Shown in pieces: positions 25,270 to 33,730 of a DNA stretch of 64,000 bases (within the stretch, counting starts at the first letter, position 1; each line of letters begins with the position of its first letter). The position numbers were made by a program, and so were the translations under genes. This DNA comes from Earliella scabrosa (lineage: Eukaryota; Basidiomycota; Agaricomycetes; Polyporales; Polyporaceae). Where the stretch lies: positions 2,931,971 through 2,995,970 of the forward strand of contig JABYQQ010000005.1 of assembly GCA_022605405.1 (NCBI GenBank), given 5' to 3'. The notes beneath the pieces are model-generated. The model was not told the DNA's origin, searched no databases, and saw nothing but the letters and a program-made list of their open reading frames with translations.

Positions 25270-25996
25270 AGGATCGCGCAGTGAGGACGAGCACCGATAC
25301 CGTGCAGAGCTGATAACTAACGAGGCCATGGGGCCACAACTGCGGAGGCGACATGCCCGCTCAATGTCAGCGTTGTGCATTGCAATGGGATGCGGGCGAA
25401 GTCTAAGACTACATACCTGTGTCAGCGTTCCGTCTGAGCAGACCCATTTGAGAAACATACACGGACCTACAACCCCGTGACAATAGTAACTTCTGGGCGA
25501 GGCCGGCCCTGCTTGACTCCGAGAAGCTCGAGGAGGTTTCGGTGGCTCAAACCAGTCGCGCGAATTCGTTTTACAGCTGAGTCGGAAAGTAATGAGACGT
25601 CCAACTTTTTTTTCCACGCCCATCGACACGTCAGGAATCTTCCGACGCACCTTCCGAGCCATCTTCCACGCCATAAGCGCCCGACCCTCCGGCCATGTTG
25701 TGCGTGTTTTGCTTCATTCTCTGCATAGAACCAATTTTTTTGTTCTCGTACTGTGCATATGATGAATTTATAGCATGATTTTCCACCTTTCATGCGGAAG
25801 TGGGCAAGGAGTACGCGCCGCTTTGCGAGGAGGCGGGCGCCTAACTCCGGAAGATCGGCCGGAAGATACGTCGGAAGATGTCTGACGTGCCCCAGACGTG
25901 CGTCACAAAAAATTCTTGTGTCTCATTACTTTCCGACTCAGCTGTAAGGTGAATGCCAGCGGTCGAGTGTTCTCCGATGGCTTCCACCGTGCTCAG
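25270..25996. repeat. Dispersed repeat, copy 1 (interrupted by a MITE)
   Basis: Shares collinear blocks with 36230-36545: GGAGGCGACATGCCCGCTC, ACCTGTGTCAGCG, and near the 3' end GTTCTCCGATGGC followed by CACCGTGC/CGCCGTGC. The two copies are clearly diverged. The MITE at 25574-25944 separates the blocks in this copy but not in the other. No coding potential recognised. Confidence 0.7.
25574..25944. mobile_element. MITE with 25-bp terminal inverted repeats and TA target duplication
   Basis: The 371-bp element begins CAGCTGAGTCGGAAAG and ends with its exact complement CTTTCCGACTCAGCTG. The perfect inverted repeat is 25 bp on each end, flanked by TA at 25572-25573 and 25945-25946. TA duplication and this terminal type indicate a non-autonomous Tc1/mariner-like element. 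It has no transposase. The uninterrupted copy of the surrounding repeat at about 36.49 kb represents the empty site. Confidence 0.85.
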
Positions 25997-26093: not shown

Positions 26094-26250
26094 TACATAT
26101 GTAGTAGGCTCGTCCCCAGCCTGTTCGGTGATGGGAGTGATGGGAATTCAAGCTCCGTCGTAAACTCCTGCGCGATCACCGAACAGGCTGGGCACATTGG
26201 CGCGCCTTTGGGTGGGTCGGGACCGTGAGAATACGGACTTGTGAATTTCG
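26094..26250 (+). repeat. Left terminal inverted repeat with internal hairpin
   Basis: Outer TACATATGTAG, then a perfect 18-bp hairpin arm pair at 26115-26132 and 26175-26192 around a 42-nt loop, then CACATTGGCG and the GGGTGGGTC..CCGTGAGAATACGG block. It matches the inverted complement of 33190-33346. Confidence 0.8.
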
Positions 26251-26339
26251 CGAAAAGCTCTCCAGGGTAATGTGACGAAGTGAGCGCGGTCGTCGTACAT
26301 GTACTTAAGCTAATCAACCAGTATGCATGCCTTATGCCC
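26251..26339. other. Spacer between left TIR and DUF6589 stop
   Basis: About 90 bases; the 3' flank of the DUF6589 gene. Nothing further seen. Confidence 0.4.
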
Positions 26340-29300
26340 TCACAATGTACTCAGATCATCCATATCAAGAGCAACGTCTGCCGCGCTATCCAGCGAGAAC
26401 AAAGAGCCATCGCGCTCTGCCATGGCCCAGTCGATATCAGTCTCTCCGTCCCAGTACTCATGGTCCGAGTCCATGTCATCTGCGGGAACATCGAAGGGGC
26501 CGCGCGTTTGATGTAGAGCGTTCCCACCTGCATGTAGTATGTCAGATTGAGCAGTAATGGAAGGTGTCATATACGTACTCGGCACCGTATGCGAGTCGAC
26601 GGCGGTGGCAGCCGGCTCGACAGCGCCGGCACGGGCAGCGGATATAGGGACGGTTGCTTGGTGAAGATATGGCTGGCCAACAACGGGACGCATACTGCAG
26701 CGCTTCTGAAGGCGACGGAGCTGCTGATTGAAGTCTGCGAGGGGCCCGGCAAGCTGGGTCCACCCCAGTCCGACCATGTTGGGGACAGCCCCCTTGAGGC
26801 CGTCGATGGTGCGTCCCGGTCGTGTGGTGTAGACACCGTCCATAGCGAGCGCATCGATGAGCTCATTGATGTCGCGCTCAAGATCCGGGCTGGTGTGCTT
26901 TGCTCCCTGTCGGGACCCAAGGGTGCCGTTAATCTGAGCAGATAGACGACGCAAGATGTCTATGGCTGGGGAGACTTTGGCGAGCCACTCCCAAGATGCA
27001 TTGCTCCCATGAGCCTTGTAGATATTCTGCGATGAGAAGAGTTAGCAATCTGGATCCACGCAGCTTTGAACCACCAACCTTCGTCCAGAAGTTGATATGT
27101 TCCTGCATGAGATCGACCTCGACCCATGAGTCGGGTTTGCCCGTCGGGTTAACCAGCCAGTTTTGCATGACTATCTTCCTGTTGCGTTCGTGCAGTTAGT
27201 AGGTATGACGCCGACTGACCCCGTGTGTACATACATACCTGAGAGGTTCGGGCCAGACGTGGGTCAGGTTGTGGATGAGATGGAGCATCTCGTGGGCATA
27301 CTTGGTGCGTCCACTTCCACGAAAGCTGGACGTCCAGAGCTTAAGTACCGTGAGCACACGCCCGGAGTCACCGCTCTTGACTGCGTCATTGTATTCGCGT
27401 AGGACGAGGGCATCTCGGAGGAACAGGACTGCGTTCTCGAATACCATATCGCCGCTGTGCGTTGTGGCCGTGTCCTCAGCGGGAGGGGTGGTCTCGGAGT
27501 CATCGTCAAGTCCGTCGATGTCGCTCTCTCTTTCCCGGAGTTCAGCCTCTCGCTGGCTGCGGAGCTTCTGCGCGACTTGGGCGTTGGCATACCTTGCCAC
27601 AATGAGCTTTGCGTGCGCCCGAAGTTCTTCTATTGAGACATTCTTGGCGTAGTCTTCGGGGCTGGCGCATTCGGACACGAGGGATAGACAGTGGAGTACG
27701 CAGGCGTAAAGAGAGACGAAGATGAGATCTCGACAGGTTCGGAATGGGGGTAGGGAGCTCAGCACGATGGGTTTACGGTCGAGGCGGGTGTTGTTGAACC
27801 AGAGACTTCCAGGGGTGGTCATGGAGGAGCCCCAGTGGTGTTCGATGATTCCATGAGTGGCGGCCATCTTGTAGTGAAAGAGTCCAGGCATGCAGACGGC
27901 CCACAGGAATGAGTGAGCGAAACTGTCATGCCCGGCGCGATTGGCTAGAAGAGATCGGATGCGAGATATGGAGAGTTGATCGCCGCACAGGATCTTGACT
28001 GTGCGCGTGAACTCGGGGGTGGACATGTCTTGTCCGAGGGCTGAGAAGATCTCCGTCAGGACGTCGGCGTTGCCGGTGGTGCTAGACTCGTCAATATTCA
28101 TGGCGGGTAACGGCATCGGTTCCGTTTGGTGGAGAGGGATCTTGTCGGCTGTGGAGGGAGTGGTGTCGAGAATGTCTTTGCGGAAACGCGCAAAGCCTTC
28201 GCCACCGTGGTTTACAATGATTCGAAGGACGGTATGTTCGAGGCGTTCTGTGAGAGCGGTGTTCTCCTCGGGAGTAAGGAGTATGTCCTCGATCTTGAGT
28301 TCGGGGGCATGCGCGAAGGAGTCGACAAGTTCAGAGGTCTGCATGTCGTCCGGAGCCGCATTGAAAAGCTCAAAGACTGTAGCACACGTGCCGTTCTGTT
28401 GGGAGTCCTTACGACCTATCACTTGCTCTGCAACCTTGAAGAGAAAGTTGACGTTGTCCCAGACATGCGCGAGGACAGAGTTACGCGCGCGCTCACGTGC
28501 CTCGCGCATGCAAGCGTCCGCCAGAAGCTTGAGAAGCCCCGCACTACGTCCGCTGCCAGCAGGGGGCACGCTGGCTTGGTCGTCTCTCGCCTTCATGTCG
28601 CCCTGCGGTGTGTTCTCCGTCTCATTTCCTGTGGTCGGTCCCTCACCTCCGGATGCTGGAATTGGCGCGAGCGGTGCGGTCGTGGGGTCGAGAGTCGGCG
28701 GCTGTGCGACGGCGGGCTCGCGGGTGGCCGTCACGACACGGATGTCTTCGTGTTCATCCTCGTTCTCTTCGGTCTCGCTCTCAGTCTCGCTTGGAGTCGG
28801 TGATACGGGAATGGGGCCTCTCGGGCCATCGGCGCGGTATTGTTTGGGAGTGGACGGGCCGACGGAGGGTGGGACACTGTCGGGCATGGTCGAGTCAGGT
28901 AAGCTCTCTGTCCCACTACTATCCTCAGACCTCAGGCGTCCGGTAAGTGCAGGATAGCTGCTCGTTATTCCCAAATGAGAGAGGACACTGATGACTTGGC
29001 GATGCGCGCCCTCAGCGTATGCGTACAGTCCGAGGACGTGCCGCGCAAAGCTATTCTTCTGGCTGCGTGCACCGAGACCAATGAGGGCCTGTGTCGTGAT
29101 GAACTGTAGGGCAGATTAAGTTTGAACCTCGCGCGAGAGGGAGCTCAAAGGCACTGACATTCTCTTTGCGCTTGATTGCGGATGCACTGTCGGAGGACAG
29201 TTGCTTGTGAGTGCTGCTGAAGGCAGTGAACAGAGCCATCGCGGTCGGACACAGTTCCAGCAGTTTAGCATGGAACTTCTCGAGGGTAAAGCCCAGGGCG

Positions 29301-29959
29301 AATTCGCGACTGATCTCCATCTTTTCGGCTTGCAGGAACTTCGACCGCGTGGCTGCACTCCCTTCGGCACGCACAACCGTTGCGGCGTACTCAACCGCCC
29401 AGGTATGTACGCTTGTTCTCCCAGTGGTACTGTTTCTTGACGAGGTCCACCAATCCAGAACTTGTTCCACCCTCCCTTGGACTGAGAAGAAGCCCCAATA
29501 GCGACGAGAGCCCTGCCAGTTCTCGGGGTTGGACACATACACCACAAGGTCACCGAATGTGAGTTCGTGTGCCTCGAGCCACTCGAGCGCAGCTGCCAGA
29601 TGCGCGTTACGTTGCTGACGTTGTTCTTCCTCCAGGGCTGCTTGACGTGCTCTTTCGAGCTCCTGAGCCTCTGCACGGGCTCTCTCGCGCTTCTTCACAC
29701 CCTTGCGGATGGCGTCGGCCTTTGAGCGCACGGGGGACGACGCGTTCACGCCAGGATCACTGTCCGGCGGCGGCAGGCTCTCTTGTGGGACATCCTGAGT
29801 CTTTCGTGCGACGGGAGTCGGGGACGATGGGGGAGAAATTTCGGGACTAATCGTGTAGAGCTCTGCGGCGTGTGCAAAGAGGGCGGGGAGTGGCGGCAGG
29901 CTGGCCGCCCTTCGGATCCGTGCCCGTCGCGGTGTTGTTGGTGAGTCTGGCAGAGCCAT
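26340..29959 (-). CDS. DUF6589-domain protein, candidate transposase of the element
   Basis: Starts MALPDSPTTPRRARIRRAA, then a Glu/Arg coiled-coil stretch. An N-terminal conserved part has HTWAVEYAATVVRAE, ALGLGARSQKN-like text across an intron near 29105-29160, and AEGAHRQVISVLSHLGITSSY. A Ser/Thr/Pro-rich linker follows. The DUF6589 core then reads KILCGDQLSISRIRSLL, FLWAVCMPGLFHYKMAATHG and IEHHWG, then SLWFNNTRLDRKPIVLSSLPP. Further on are YAHEMLHLIHNLTHVWP and, across an intron, NPTGKPDSWVEVDLMQEHI. The acidic tail ends DVALDMDDLSTL at 26340. DUF6589 is multi-copy in Agaricomycetes with no known activity. Its conserved Asp/His residues (GDQL, GLFHYKMA) could form a catalytic site, but this is inference. 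No stop interrupts the model. Confidence 0.8.
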
Positions 29960-30156
29960 GCGCAAACTGGATTGTCTTCTGAGCTGGGCTTCCGTCTCGT
30001 ACAGCTTGCTGGTGTATGTAGAGAGAAGGAGAATAATGATCGAGCCTGCGCGCGCACGGACTACCACCCACCCAAACCGATCACTTCCGCCGCGCTCCAC
30101 TCCTGTTTCGACAGTCTCTCGGTTTGGCCTCTCTCACTCACTTCTCTGTCCTTCTC
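29960..30156. promoter_or_regulatory. Divergent promoter region of the DUF6589/RecQ pair
   Basis: The 197 bases between the two ATGs must contain both promoters, implying co-expression of the two element genes. No TATA box is evident. Confidence 0.5.
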
Positions 30157-33066
30157 ATGGCTCGCCATCCGCCTCCCACATCCAAGCCTCGATGGACGCG
30201 CAAGAAACTCCTTCCGCCACCCTCTCCGAGGCCCAAACTGACTCCGAGCGATGTGGACAGACTTAAGACGCTGATGAAGGAGCGTTTCAAATGGGCGGAA
30301 GAACCGCGTTTTTTCCAACTTGAAGGCACTCGGGCTCAACTCGAAGGGTGCGACATGATCATACAAGCACCAACTGGGTCCGGCAAGACAGCGGTAGCAG
30401 CTGGCCCGCATGTATGGCCCACAAGTGCCGGCAAGACGACCCTCATGGTCTGCCCCTTGCTCTCGCTGGAAACCGAAATGGTGAGTCTATCTCACCCACA
30501 CATATCCATCTCTCTCTTGAATGCAATCCCAGGTCGACACGTTCCGAGACGATTTTGGGTTGAAAGCCGTCGCCATCAATAGCGCAGGAGGGAAATTGAC
30601 CACCACGCTCGTCAAGGTCAGTCCCGCACGAGTCGTCGAATATATCACGCACTCATACTGATAGACCACTACTGTGTAGGAGCTCCTGAACGGCACTTAT
30701 CAGATTGTTCTCATCTCTCCGGAGATGCTCCAGTCTCCCGCGTTTGTCACCCGAGTACTCCGACGACGTGAATTCTCGCAACGCGTCCTCTCCGTGGTCG
30801 TGGATGAAGCTCACTGTGTGTCACACTGGGGTGCGGACTTCCGCAAGAAGTACGGTAGCCTCGGTACGATACGAGCGTTCCTCCCGCGTGGCACGCCCGT
30901 CATTGCTGTCACTGCTACACTCACCGCCAGAGTACGTCGCGATCTCCACCGCGTACTCCATTTCAGCCCTGGAACAAGTCGTTTCCTCAACCTCGGCAAC
31001 GACCGCCCGAACGTCACCATAGCGGTGAGAGCCTGTCAGCACGCCCAGAACTCGTACGCCGACCTGGATTTCATCCTACCTGCCTCGATTTCCCGAGCGC
31101 TCGATATTCCCAAAACATATCTATATGTCGACGACATACGCGTTGGCTCGGAGATCATCGACCACCTCAATGACCTCCTTGCTTTGCGCGCCCCGAGTCT
31201 TGCCTCCGCCGGTCTCATCCGTCCTTACAACGCAACACTCTCCCATGAATATCGCCAAGCTGCGATGGCCGCCTTCCGCGCCTCTCCGCATGATCTACCC
31301 AGCCTCAATCCTGAGCCCGTTGAGGCCTCGCCGTGCATACGGATACTCGTATGCACCGATGCTGCGGGGATGGTGCGTGACTCAGTCTCGGCGTGCTGAC
31401 ACCATGACACAAGGTTTCACAGGGATGCAATGTCCCGGATGTCGACCTCGTTGTCCAGTGGAAACTCCCCAAAACCCTTTCAAGTTTCGTACAACGGGCT
31501 GGTCGTGCGGCACGCTCAAAAAATCGCACCGGCCTTGCCGTACTGCTCGTCGAGCGCGCTGCATACTCTGTCGACCTCCGCGAGGCTCCCCCGGACGACA
31601 CATCCACCAAATCCACTGCCAGGCGACAGAAGAAAACCAAAACCAGACAAAATCCAAAGGTCGCTAATCGAGCAGCTCCTAAAGGGTACGCCCAGGAACA
31701 CGGTGTCGATCGTGGAGGGCCGAAGAAGCAGGATTCCGTCTGTCGCACGGCCGATCCACCAAATGTCAACCACGATGCTGATGACGAAGGACTCCTCGCC
31801 TTCGTGCAAGCGATCACTTGTCGCCGCAAGATCTGGGCTGATATCTTTGACAGCCAACGTGCTGGTACGTTACTTGGAAGCCACCACGCCGAGGAACTTG
31901 CTCACGGTCTGCTTACAGAACCAGTACCTGGCGTGGCATGTTGCGACATCTGTGACCCCACCGTTTTTGATCGTTGCCGCGCCCGCTCGCAGACGAAGCC
32001 CAGGAAGACGAGGACAGCGGACCGAGGATATCCAGACAGGGAAGCCATCTCACGCCTTGAGGAATGGCGTGAGGCCATATTTGCGCGGGACCTGTCCCTC
32101 TCCCAGCTTGACGCAGCTGCTGTCCTTGACAATGCGACGATCAAGACTCTCGCCTCCATCGGACCTCTCACTGCCGTCCAAGTAGCTGACATCCTACAGC
32201 ATTCGTGGATATGGTGGAAGAAGTACGGCGAAGAACTCACACGGTTTCTTCTCACCCTACAGATCAAGTACCGACCTCTCCCGAAGAAGACTACCTCGAA
32301 GCGCGCAGCTGCTATCCCAACGCAAACAGCCCAACCTCCCTCTCGAGATGAGATCGCCCCTGCAACCCGTATCCAAACCCTCGCGACCGGTAAGAGACGG
32401 ACGCCGCCGCCTGTAGAAGAGACTGCAGAGTCCGCTACACCTGTACCAGCCTCCAAACGATCTCGCACCGAGCCTCAGCGCGACGTACTCAGCCTGTCGA
32501 CGCCTGGCTCATACCCCCTGAGTCACCTCCCTCCTACATCAAGTTCGCGTTCTGCCGCTGCTCAACCGTCATACGCTGTTCCTGTCATGCCCTCCTCCAC
32601 ACCCAACCCGTACCGGATACACTCCACAGGCTCGTACACTCCAGCTTCCTACAGCATGTACACATCGCCACACACGCCTCCGACTCATGCTCATGTTCCA
32701 ACAGCAGTACATCCAACGCCCCCTTTTCCCTTCGCGCCCAGGCTACATCCGGGTTCATACATTTCACCCTCTGCAGCCGTTCCCCCTCCTCACATGTATT
32801 CTCCTGTACCATCATATCCGTCGGCTCCCCACCCGCATACATTCCATGCTTTCCCTAATACATCTCATTTCCCGGTAGCTACACACTCCCCACACCCCGC
32901 GACTGGCATCTATACATCTGCAGTGTCGTCAAATACACTTAATCCTCATCACTTACCCTCTACTCCGTACCCATCAGCCACCGGTAGCCCACCACAGTCG
33001 AACGGTTTGCATACGTCCTACCCTTATTCTTACCCACAGAACCCCCATTTCCCGTCCACCCGTTGA
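30157..33066 (+). CDS. RecQ-like DEAH-box DNA helicase
   Basis: Starts MARHPPPTSKPRWTRKKL. All helicase motifs are present and in frame after removing three short introns (near 30481, 30618 and 31372): Q-like FQLEGTRAQLEG, Walker A APTGSGKT, MVCPLLSLETEM, motif II VVVDEAHCVSHWG with the RecQ-type DFRKKY, motif III VTATLT, motif IV TYLYVDDIRVG, motif V ILVCTDAAGMGCNVPDV and motif VI QRAGRAARSKNR. A region with CCDICDPTVFDRC may replace the zinc-binding subdomain. The last 300 residues are Pro/Ser/Tyr/His-rich and disordered (PPHMYSPVPSYPSAPH). RecQ enzymes unwind 3'-5'. Within the element it may process transposition intermediates. Ends FPSTR at 33066. Confidence 0.85.
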
Positions 33067-33189
33067 TAGTGTAGTCTTCGCTCATCCATAACGGGGCAGT
33101 TCAACACAAATAGCAGTATTTACATCATCTCGGTTGCTAGAGCGGGCGGGAAGGCTACCAATGCACCTGCACGAGAGAGCACAACAGCA

Positions 33190-33346
33190 CGAAAAACACA
33201 AGTCCGTATTCTCACGGTCGGGACCCACCTAAGGGGCCTCCAATTTGCCCAGTCGGTATAGCGTGTCGTCCTGGCTTCAAACTCCGCTGATCCCTGCCCG
33301 ATTTGGACGGCACGCTTACCGACTGGCTTGCGAGTCTACATATGTA
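33190..33346 (-). repeat. Right terminal inverted repeat with internal hairpin
   Basis: Mirror of the left end. Hairpin arms CCAGTCGGTA..GCGTG (from 33249) and CACGC..TACCGACTGG (to about 33328) are followed by CTCG and the outer palindrome TACATATGTA at 33337-33346. The hairpin arm sequence differs from the left one, yet base pairing is kept at both ends. Confidence 0.8.
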
Positions 33347-33730
33347 GCAGCGTCAGCGAAGCATCGAGTGCGGTTCACTAAGCACTTGAACTTGGCTAGT
33401 TTCCACCTTCGACTCGGTAGCCCCCGTGCCAGTGGTGGCCGCAGTGTTGTCGGGGCGACAAACCCGCCATGCTTGATGTACAACGTTTGGAACGCGGATG
33501 GACAGGATGAGAGTAGCAATATTGGCATAAACAACTTAAGGCGTAAGTAAATCAGGAACTCCTACACTTAGATCGAGTCAGAGTACTTACTTTGATCGGG
33601 ACGTCGCGTAATTCCCACAACACCGATCCGTCACGCCCTCCCGTTCCTTAACTTCCGACCAAACATCCAGGGCGCGCGGTGCACAACTAGGGGCGTGTAG
33701 ACTGGGAGGGCGTCCTCAGCATCGTCAATC
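33347..33730. other. Intergenic, promoter of deaminase-like gene
   Basis: About 380 bases outside the right TIR. Nothing recognised other than the upstream region of the next gene. Confidence 0.4.

Follow-up and report, generated by a model that had tools for sequence, protein, structure and literature searches.

A probable AcademH-type DNA transposon pairing a DUF6589 protein with a RecQ-family helicase in Earliella scabrosa

A 64,000-nt stretch of the Earliella scabrosa genome (GCA_022605405.1, contig JABYQQ010000005.1, positions 2,931,971–2,995,970 of the forward strand; hereafter the window) carries an element of 7,234 bp (window positions 26105–33338), present as a single copy in the genome, that is very likely an AcademH-type DNA transposon, complete and of low copy number, with a protein of the Pfam family DUF6589 as its DDE transposase and a RecQ-family helicase that most likely opens hairpins or unwinds an intermediate. 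The boundaries, the target-site duplications, the two intact genes and their repeated co-occurrence can be read from the sequence, by which the element is a class II transposon. An earlier note on this DNA had proposed such a transposon with DUF6589 as its transposase, and the proposal is supported by the paired loci, the ends and duplications, the non-autonomous copies and a conserved D/D/E set of residues. Contigs of the genome are numbered C1, C4, C6 and so on; the window lies on C5 and reaches the contig end.

Borders and genes of the element

The element is flanked by identical 9-bp copies of CATATGTAG (26096–26104 and 33339–33347), the length also seen in the duplications of sibling elements, and has TAG-type termini, TAGGCTCG on the left (26105–26112, forward strand) and, read inward on the reverse strand, TAGACTCG on the right (33331–33338). 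The two termini match at seven of the eight terminal bases and agree with the TAGTCTCG ends of sibling elements, fitting their TAGNCT pattern, in which T1, A2, G3, C5 and T6 are invariant in all 12 ends of six elements. Because the 9-bp repeat flanks 26105–33338, TACATATGTA, the palindrome with which the earlier note had each end begin, is assigned to target DNA outside the element, as the duplication plus chance neighbouring bases. An element is thus present where the note had drawn it (26094–33346), but from the duplication and the sibling ends its borders are placed at 26105 and 33338. The predicted uninterrupted site is GGGGTACATATGTAGCAGC with a single CATATGTAG; when the genome was searched for this insertion site in its empty form, only the two flanks themselves matched. 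Likewise, the inverted ends of about 157 bp described before do match at their places, but not as one continuous inverted repeat: inner blocks at 26183–26250 (forward) and 33190–33257 (reverse) are identical at 56 of 68 positions, and between the tip and the inner block the two ends differ in sequence, each being self-complementary.

Two genes fill the element, pointing apart, and as previously claimed there are exactly two, each with an intact frame once its short GT-AG introns are removed. The DUF6589 gene (26340–29959, reverse strand; exons 29959–29159, 29103–27239, 27178–27079 and 27026–26340; introns of 55, 60 and 52 nt) encodes 1,150 amino acids (aa), with a Pfam DUF6589 match at E 7.7e-111 in the 563-aa main frame and a six-frame profile match of 428 bits over profile positions 3–366. 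The helicase gene (30157–33066, forward strand; exons 30157–30480, 30533–30616, 30680–31372 and 31423–33066; introns of 52, 63 and 50 nt) encodes 914 aa and matches DEAD (E 1.7e-22) and Helicase_C (E 8e-13) within residues 1–656. It carries the motifs APTGSGKT, DEAHCVSHWG, VTATLT, VCTDAAGMGCNVPD and QRAGRAAR, the top solved structure for residues 1–423 is RecQ (4tmu, E 3.5e-28), and the nearest solved structures bear the names RecQ, RECQ1 and WRN. No nuclease domain was found in Pfam scans of five frames over much of both genes and of residues 1–656 of the 914 in the helicase.

The DUF6589 protein is very probably the transposase of the element. Catalysis would involve three candidate acidic residues, all encoded on the reverse strand: D483 in the motif WDNVN (28456–28458), D642 in GDQLS (27979–27981) and E915 in DLMQEH (27100–27102). 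DN and GD are each present in all nine rows of alignment A1, and the glutamate, as EH or EY, in all ten copies in which the last domain exon was read. Alignments and trees were built from parts of the genes, in some cases reading across stops or introns, and cover nine (A1) and ten (A2 and the trees) of the 12 DUF6589 loci described below. Intact copies retain D, D and E, and the first aspartate is missing from the decayed copies on C10 and C11. Between the sibling copies at C1:445200 and on C6, dS is 0.26 and dN 0.013 over 335 codons, a ratio of 0.05, which therefore indicates strong purifying selection on the DUF6589 protein.

The earlier note had also suggested comparing the DUF6589 fold with RNase H-like transposases, and this gave a weak lean towards DDE transposases from models of low confidence. 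The best, though weak, matches to the core are the P-element and Hermes transposases, in alignments of 4–13% identity that mostly start no more than a few residues from the first conserved aspartate; Foldseek matches after the third are noise, among which the absence of other families is uninformative. DUF6589 is a Pfam family of unknown function, to which the present analysis assigns a probable job as a transposase; the term itself was not found in a literature search that reached neither the original AcademH paper nor the majority of subscription journals.

Sibling loci and non-autonomous copies

At least 12 DUF6589 loci occur in the genome, one of which (C11) falls under the Pfam cut-off, and a relative of the window helicase adjoins DUF6589 at ten of them. 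Relatives of this helicase were found at 11 places, ten of which are next to DUF6589; a search for DEAD domains, with 36 of 91 candidates scored, was not used for these counts. The eleventh place, C2:1154528–1154875, holds a RecQ piece of the window-helicase kind, with no DUF6589 match found nearby. The genes are head-to-head, pointing apart, in the window and on C10, and tail-to-tail in the eight other paired loci. Trees of short pieces of both proteins recover the same four groups (the window with C10; C4 with C8 and C1:4037500; C14 with C1:1635400, C6 and C1:445200; and C30 alone), though the two trees disagree on branching inside the second and third groups and leave the order of the groups unsettled.

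Both TAGNCT ends and a perfect duplication are present at seven of the 12 loci, the duplication being 9 bp long at six of them and 10 bp at the other. The element at C1:445200 has perfectly matching 126-bp ends that start with TAGTCTCG and are flanked by the 10-bp repeat GAGGTGCGAA, while that at C1:1635400 has TAGTCTCG ends flanked by GGGCAAGGT; these siblings were the key to the borders of the window element. A scan of 14 stretches returned six elements that combine TAGNCT ends with a perfect duplication, including the one in the window, and its remaining hits (C4, C2, C11 and the window) have one mismatch and other termini. When left and right ends were paired among 12 of these stretches (C1:1612300 and C18, which hold end pieces only, being left out), a perfect 9-bp duplication at TAG-type ends was found in five of the 12 true pairings and in none of the 132 mismatched ones; under this 9-bp rule the C1:445200 element (10 bp) is not counted and makes the sixth, and the C6 element, found through the end pattern, the seventh. 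The C6 copy (C6:1406701–1431399) has a perfect 9-bp duplication, GTATAAGAC, and spans 24.7 kb; it is about 18.7 kb longer than its relative at C1:445200, and the two share 91% identity across 5.5 kb.

The end pattern TAGNCTCGTNNCCAGNC has 41 matches in the genome, compared with two for the reversed control, and these form 16 inverted pairs and nine singles. Two of the pairs are the C1:445200 and C1:1635400 elements, and 13 of the remaining 14 are further copies, 11 of them short and two longer; the last is the C6 element, which thereby appears both here and among the seven DUF6589 loci with ends and a duplication. Perfect 9-bp duplications flank 12 of these 14 pairs, with one mismatch on C25 and none found at C7:2093321. 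All eight copies of about 600 bp have ends in common with the C1:1635400 element, 118 bases on one side and about 130 on the other at 98–100% identity, which suggests that terminal DNA of about 118 and 130 bp is sufficient for mobility in that family. Further copies with conserved ends, the first check proposed in the earlier note, are found as siblings and as the non-autonomous copies of one sibling family.

At C20:354450–355686, one non-autonomous copy lies nested inside another, and both have a 9-bp duplication of their own. Cutting out the nested copy with one GAATTTCGT restores 60 bases that are identical in seven of eight other copies, with one mismatch in the eighth and five in the C1:1635400 element. 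For the sibling family, this empty site directly documents, at the sequence level, an insertion that duplicated 9 bp of target; for the window element no empty site was found.

The outcomes that the earlier note had named as refuting did occur in part, but they can be explained. Two paired loci (C1:4037500 and C10) yielded neither ends nor a duplication, and on C30 the 359-bp ends, of 95% identity, came without a detectable duplication. Repeats from the ends do occur in part on their own: a genome search with the ends of the window element matched only relics and short pieces, namely a decayed relative of the DUF6589 side on C11 and, on C18 and at C1:1612300, small parts of both ends whose borders could not be recognised and which are read as relics. 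The DUF6589 loci on C2 and C11 are fragments. The C30 locus (C30:108350) is a deeply diverged DUF6589–RecQ element with a terminus near CAGGCTCC and without a hairpin.

Outside the transposon, at window positions 25571–25947, lies a distinct fold-back element some 377 bp in length, with long inverted ends (CAGCTGAGTCGG...) and apparently flanked by TA. Copies or pieces of it are present on C31, C4, C16 and C20, and it resembles a mariner-type miniature inverted-repeat element (MITE).

Subterminal hairpins and the helicase

Each end of the window element can fold into a hairpin just inside its tip. The left hairpin (26112–26195) has 21-nt arms at 26112–26132 and 26175–26195 that are 95% complementary (z −4.1), and the right one (33249–33326), unlike the left in sequence, has arms at 33305–33326 and 33249–33271 (z −4.4). 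Across six elements, the stem starts 8–13 bases from the tip in ten of 12 ends, with arm scores of 24–41, nine of them above 27; in a background of 2,100 stretches drawn at random from these loci, without removal of the element ends, the 95% and 99% levels were 21 and 27 and the maximum 57. Relative to shuffles, the hairpins of the C14 right end (z −1.5) and the C4 left end (z −1.6) are weak.

The two arms of a hairpin mostly match each other better than those of other ends. Among 11 distinct ends of six elements, taken with or without a hairpin (the right end of C1:445200 equals its left, and the C30 ends and the C6 end were left out), the mean best match between the outer and inner parts of the same end is 29.3, as opposed to a mean of 13.2 and a highest value of 25 when an outer part is set against the inner parts of the other ends, with scores of at least 24 in one of 110 comparisons. 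The own partner ranks first in nine of the 11 ends, with the other end of the same element among the competitors, and the two ends of the window element reach 37 and 34 when each is matched with itself, against 11 and 15 when matched with each other. An earlier version of the test gave 33 within an end and 10.5 between ends; it used nine of the 12 ends with arms chosen for self-match, which favours the within-end score, and the 11-end version is preferred. The left ends of C1:445200 and C6 are identical over their first 146 bases, both hairpin arms included, in spite of a transposase dS of 0.26, and the ends of this pair therefore look more conserved than their genes.

In the mechanism envisaged, DUF6589, as an RNase H-like DDE enzyme, would bind both ends and cut the element at TAG...CTA, and insertion at a staggered target cut would produce the duplication of 9 bp, sometimes 10 bp. 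This transposase part is proposed because of the target duplications, the shared ends and the conserved acidic residues. A helicase-dependent step would be added, in which the RecQ helicase most likely melts the hairpin inside each tip and thereby allows the transposase to act, or alternatively unwinds DNA at an excision or insertion intermediate. The private hairpins suggest that the ends preserve a structure and not a sequence, a possibly new feature, and from this a bolder and rather doubtful proposal can be made, that AcademH-type elements are structure-guided DDE transposons in which each end has its own hairpin, constant in shape and variable in sequence, and excision requires RecQ to extrude or resolve these hairpins. 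If true, this would give the helicase a function and explain why two ends may differ in sequence, and it offers a concrete, testable account of the presence of a helicase in the lineage. Hairpins are missing from the C4 right end, the C8 left end and both C30 ends, which tells against such a structural role.

Template-switch quasipalindrome correction is a mutational process that perfects palindromes during replication, and it is possible, though less likely than not, that the hairpins are by-products of it with no part in transposition. Such a process would perfect each palindrome independently, as is observed, and is compatible with the two of 12 ends, and both C30 ends, that have no hairpin. 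It fits less well with a stem placed 8–13 bases from the tip in ten of 12 ends across three groups, or with the complete identity of both arms in the C1:445200 and C6 left ends.

Placement among known transposons

Mutator-like elements (MULEs, MuDR-type) typically have duplications of about 9 bp and long inverted ends, features that are shared here and could have been joined by a captured host helicase; this origin is very unlikely, as the Pfam scan of the main frame, with E values of up to 1 admitted, found DUF6589 only and not a MULE domain, on which the candidate was rejected. The helicase furthermore stands beside DUF6589 at ten of 12 loci and recurs in all four tree groups, which therefore speaks against a one-off capture. 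Subtelomeric RecQ genes exist in fungi and the window reaches the end of C5, yet a host telomere-linked RecQ gene beside an unrelated repeat is scarcely credible and was dismissed, given that siblings inside contigs share the gene pair, the ends and the duplications. Helitrons, which make no target duplication and encode an HUH endonuclease, were set aside on the presence of duplications and the lack of an HUH domain in the Pfam scans of the scanned parts of both genes. Kolobok elements duplicate TTAA, and the KolobokH lineage is an extremely improbable home for elements with mixed-sequence duplications of 9–10 bp, for which reason it was rejected. What recommends KolobokH is that, in the portion of the source available, it is described as RecQ-encoding and only known in fungi, with one red-alga Kolobok having RecQ on the opposite strand (PMC9587614); the likeness extends to a fungal DNA transposon with RecQ, and both the duplication and the gene layout differ from the window element.

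A helicase-carrying DDE superfamily of its own, resembling AcademH in duplication length and helicase by convergence, is improbable. It is favoured by a link to AcademH that draws on features other than transposase homology, and by the outcome of the limited literature search for DUF6589; against it, the helicase class, the duplication length and the fungal low-copy occurrence all coincide with AcademH.

The P-element and Hermes (hAT) transposases, to which the DUF6589 core has its weak fold likeness, are without a helicase and make 8-bp duplications. Terminal inverted repeats are a defining feature of AcademH, reportedly set out by Kojima in 2020 as a lineage of Academ DNA transposons, and are present in the window element and its siblings, including the perfect 126-bp pair at C1:445200. 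The nuclease of AcademX is XPG, and the scanned parts of both window genes, as expected of AcademH, hold no nuclease. AcademX belongs to the same superfamily and, as summarized in the accessible part of the source, differs by its nuclease and 3–4-bp duplications from AcademH, with a helicase and 9–10-bp duplications (PMC10045372), and likewise from the RecQ and 9–10 bp found here. The earlier note knew of no named superfamily with this pairing, but a lineage named AcademH, with a helicase and 9–10-bp duplications, had already been described (PMC10045372), and the phrase 'RecQ Helicase in Academ' had appeared in print (PMC3627910). AcademH is reported at low copy number from Basidiomycota, Ascomycota and Mucoromycota (PMC10799480), and Marasmius oreades has been noted to hold putative non-autonomous copies of Academ (PMC8290104). 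No difference from AcademH is known, the comparison running through these citing papers' descriptions rather than through transposase, end sequences, gene orientation or hairpins. With a RecQ helicase, supported by its RecQ/SF2 match and motifs, and duplications of 9–10 bp (9 bp in the window, perfect at seven of 12 loci), the element is therefore filed with the AcademH lineage, which it resembles in being a DNA transposon that carries a helicase beside its transposase (RecQ in Academ, PMC3627910), in its duplications (PMC10045372) and its low copy number in Basidiomycota (PMC10799480). Membership at the level of transposase sequence is presumed, and the window element, now placed in a named superfamily, is a probable new member of AcademH by its duplication length and helicase rather than by its transposase sequence.
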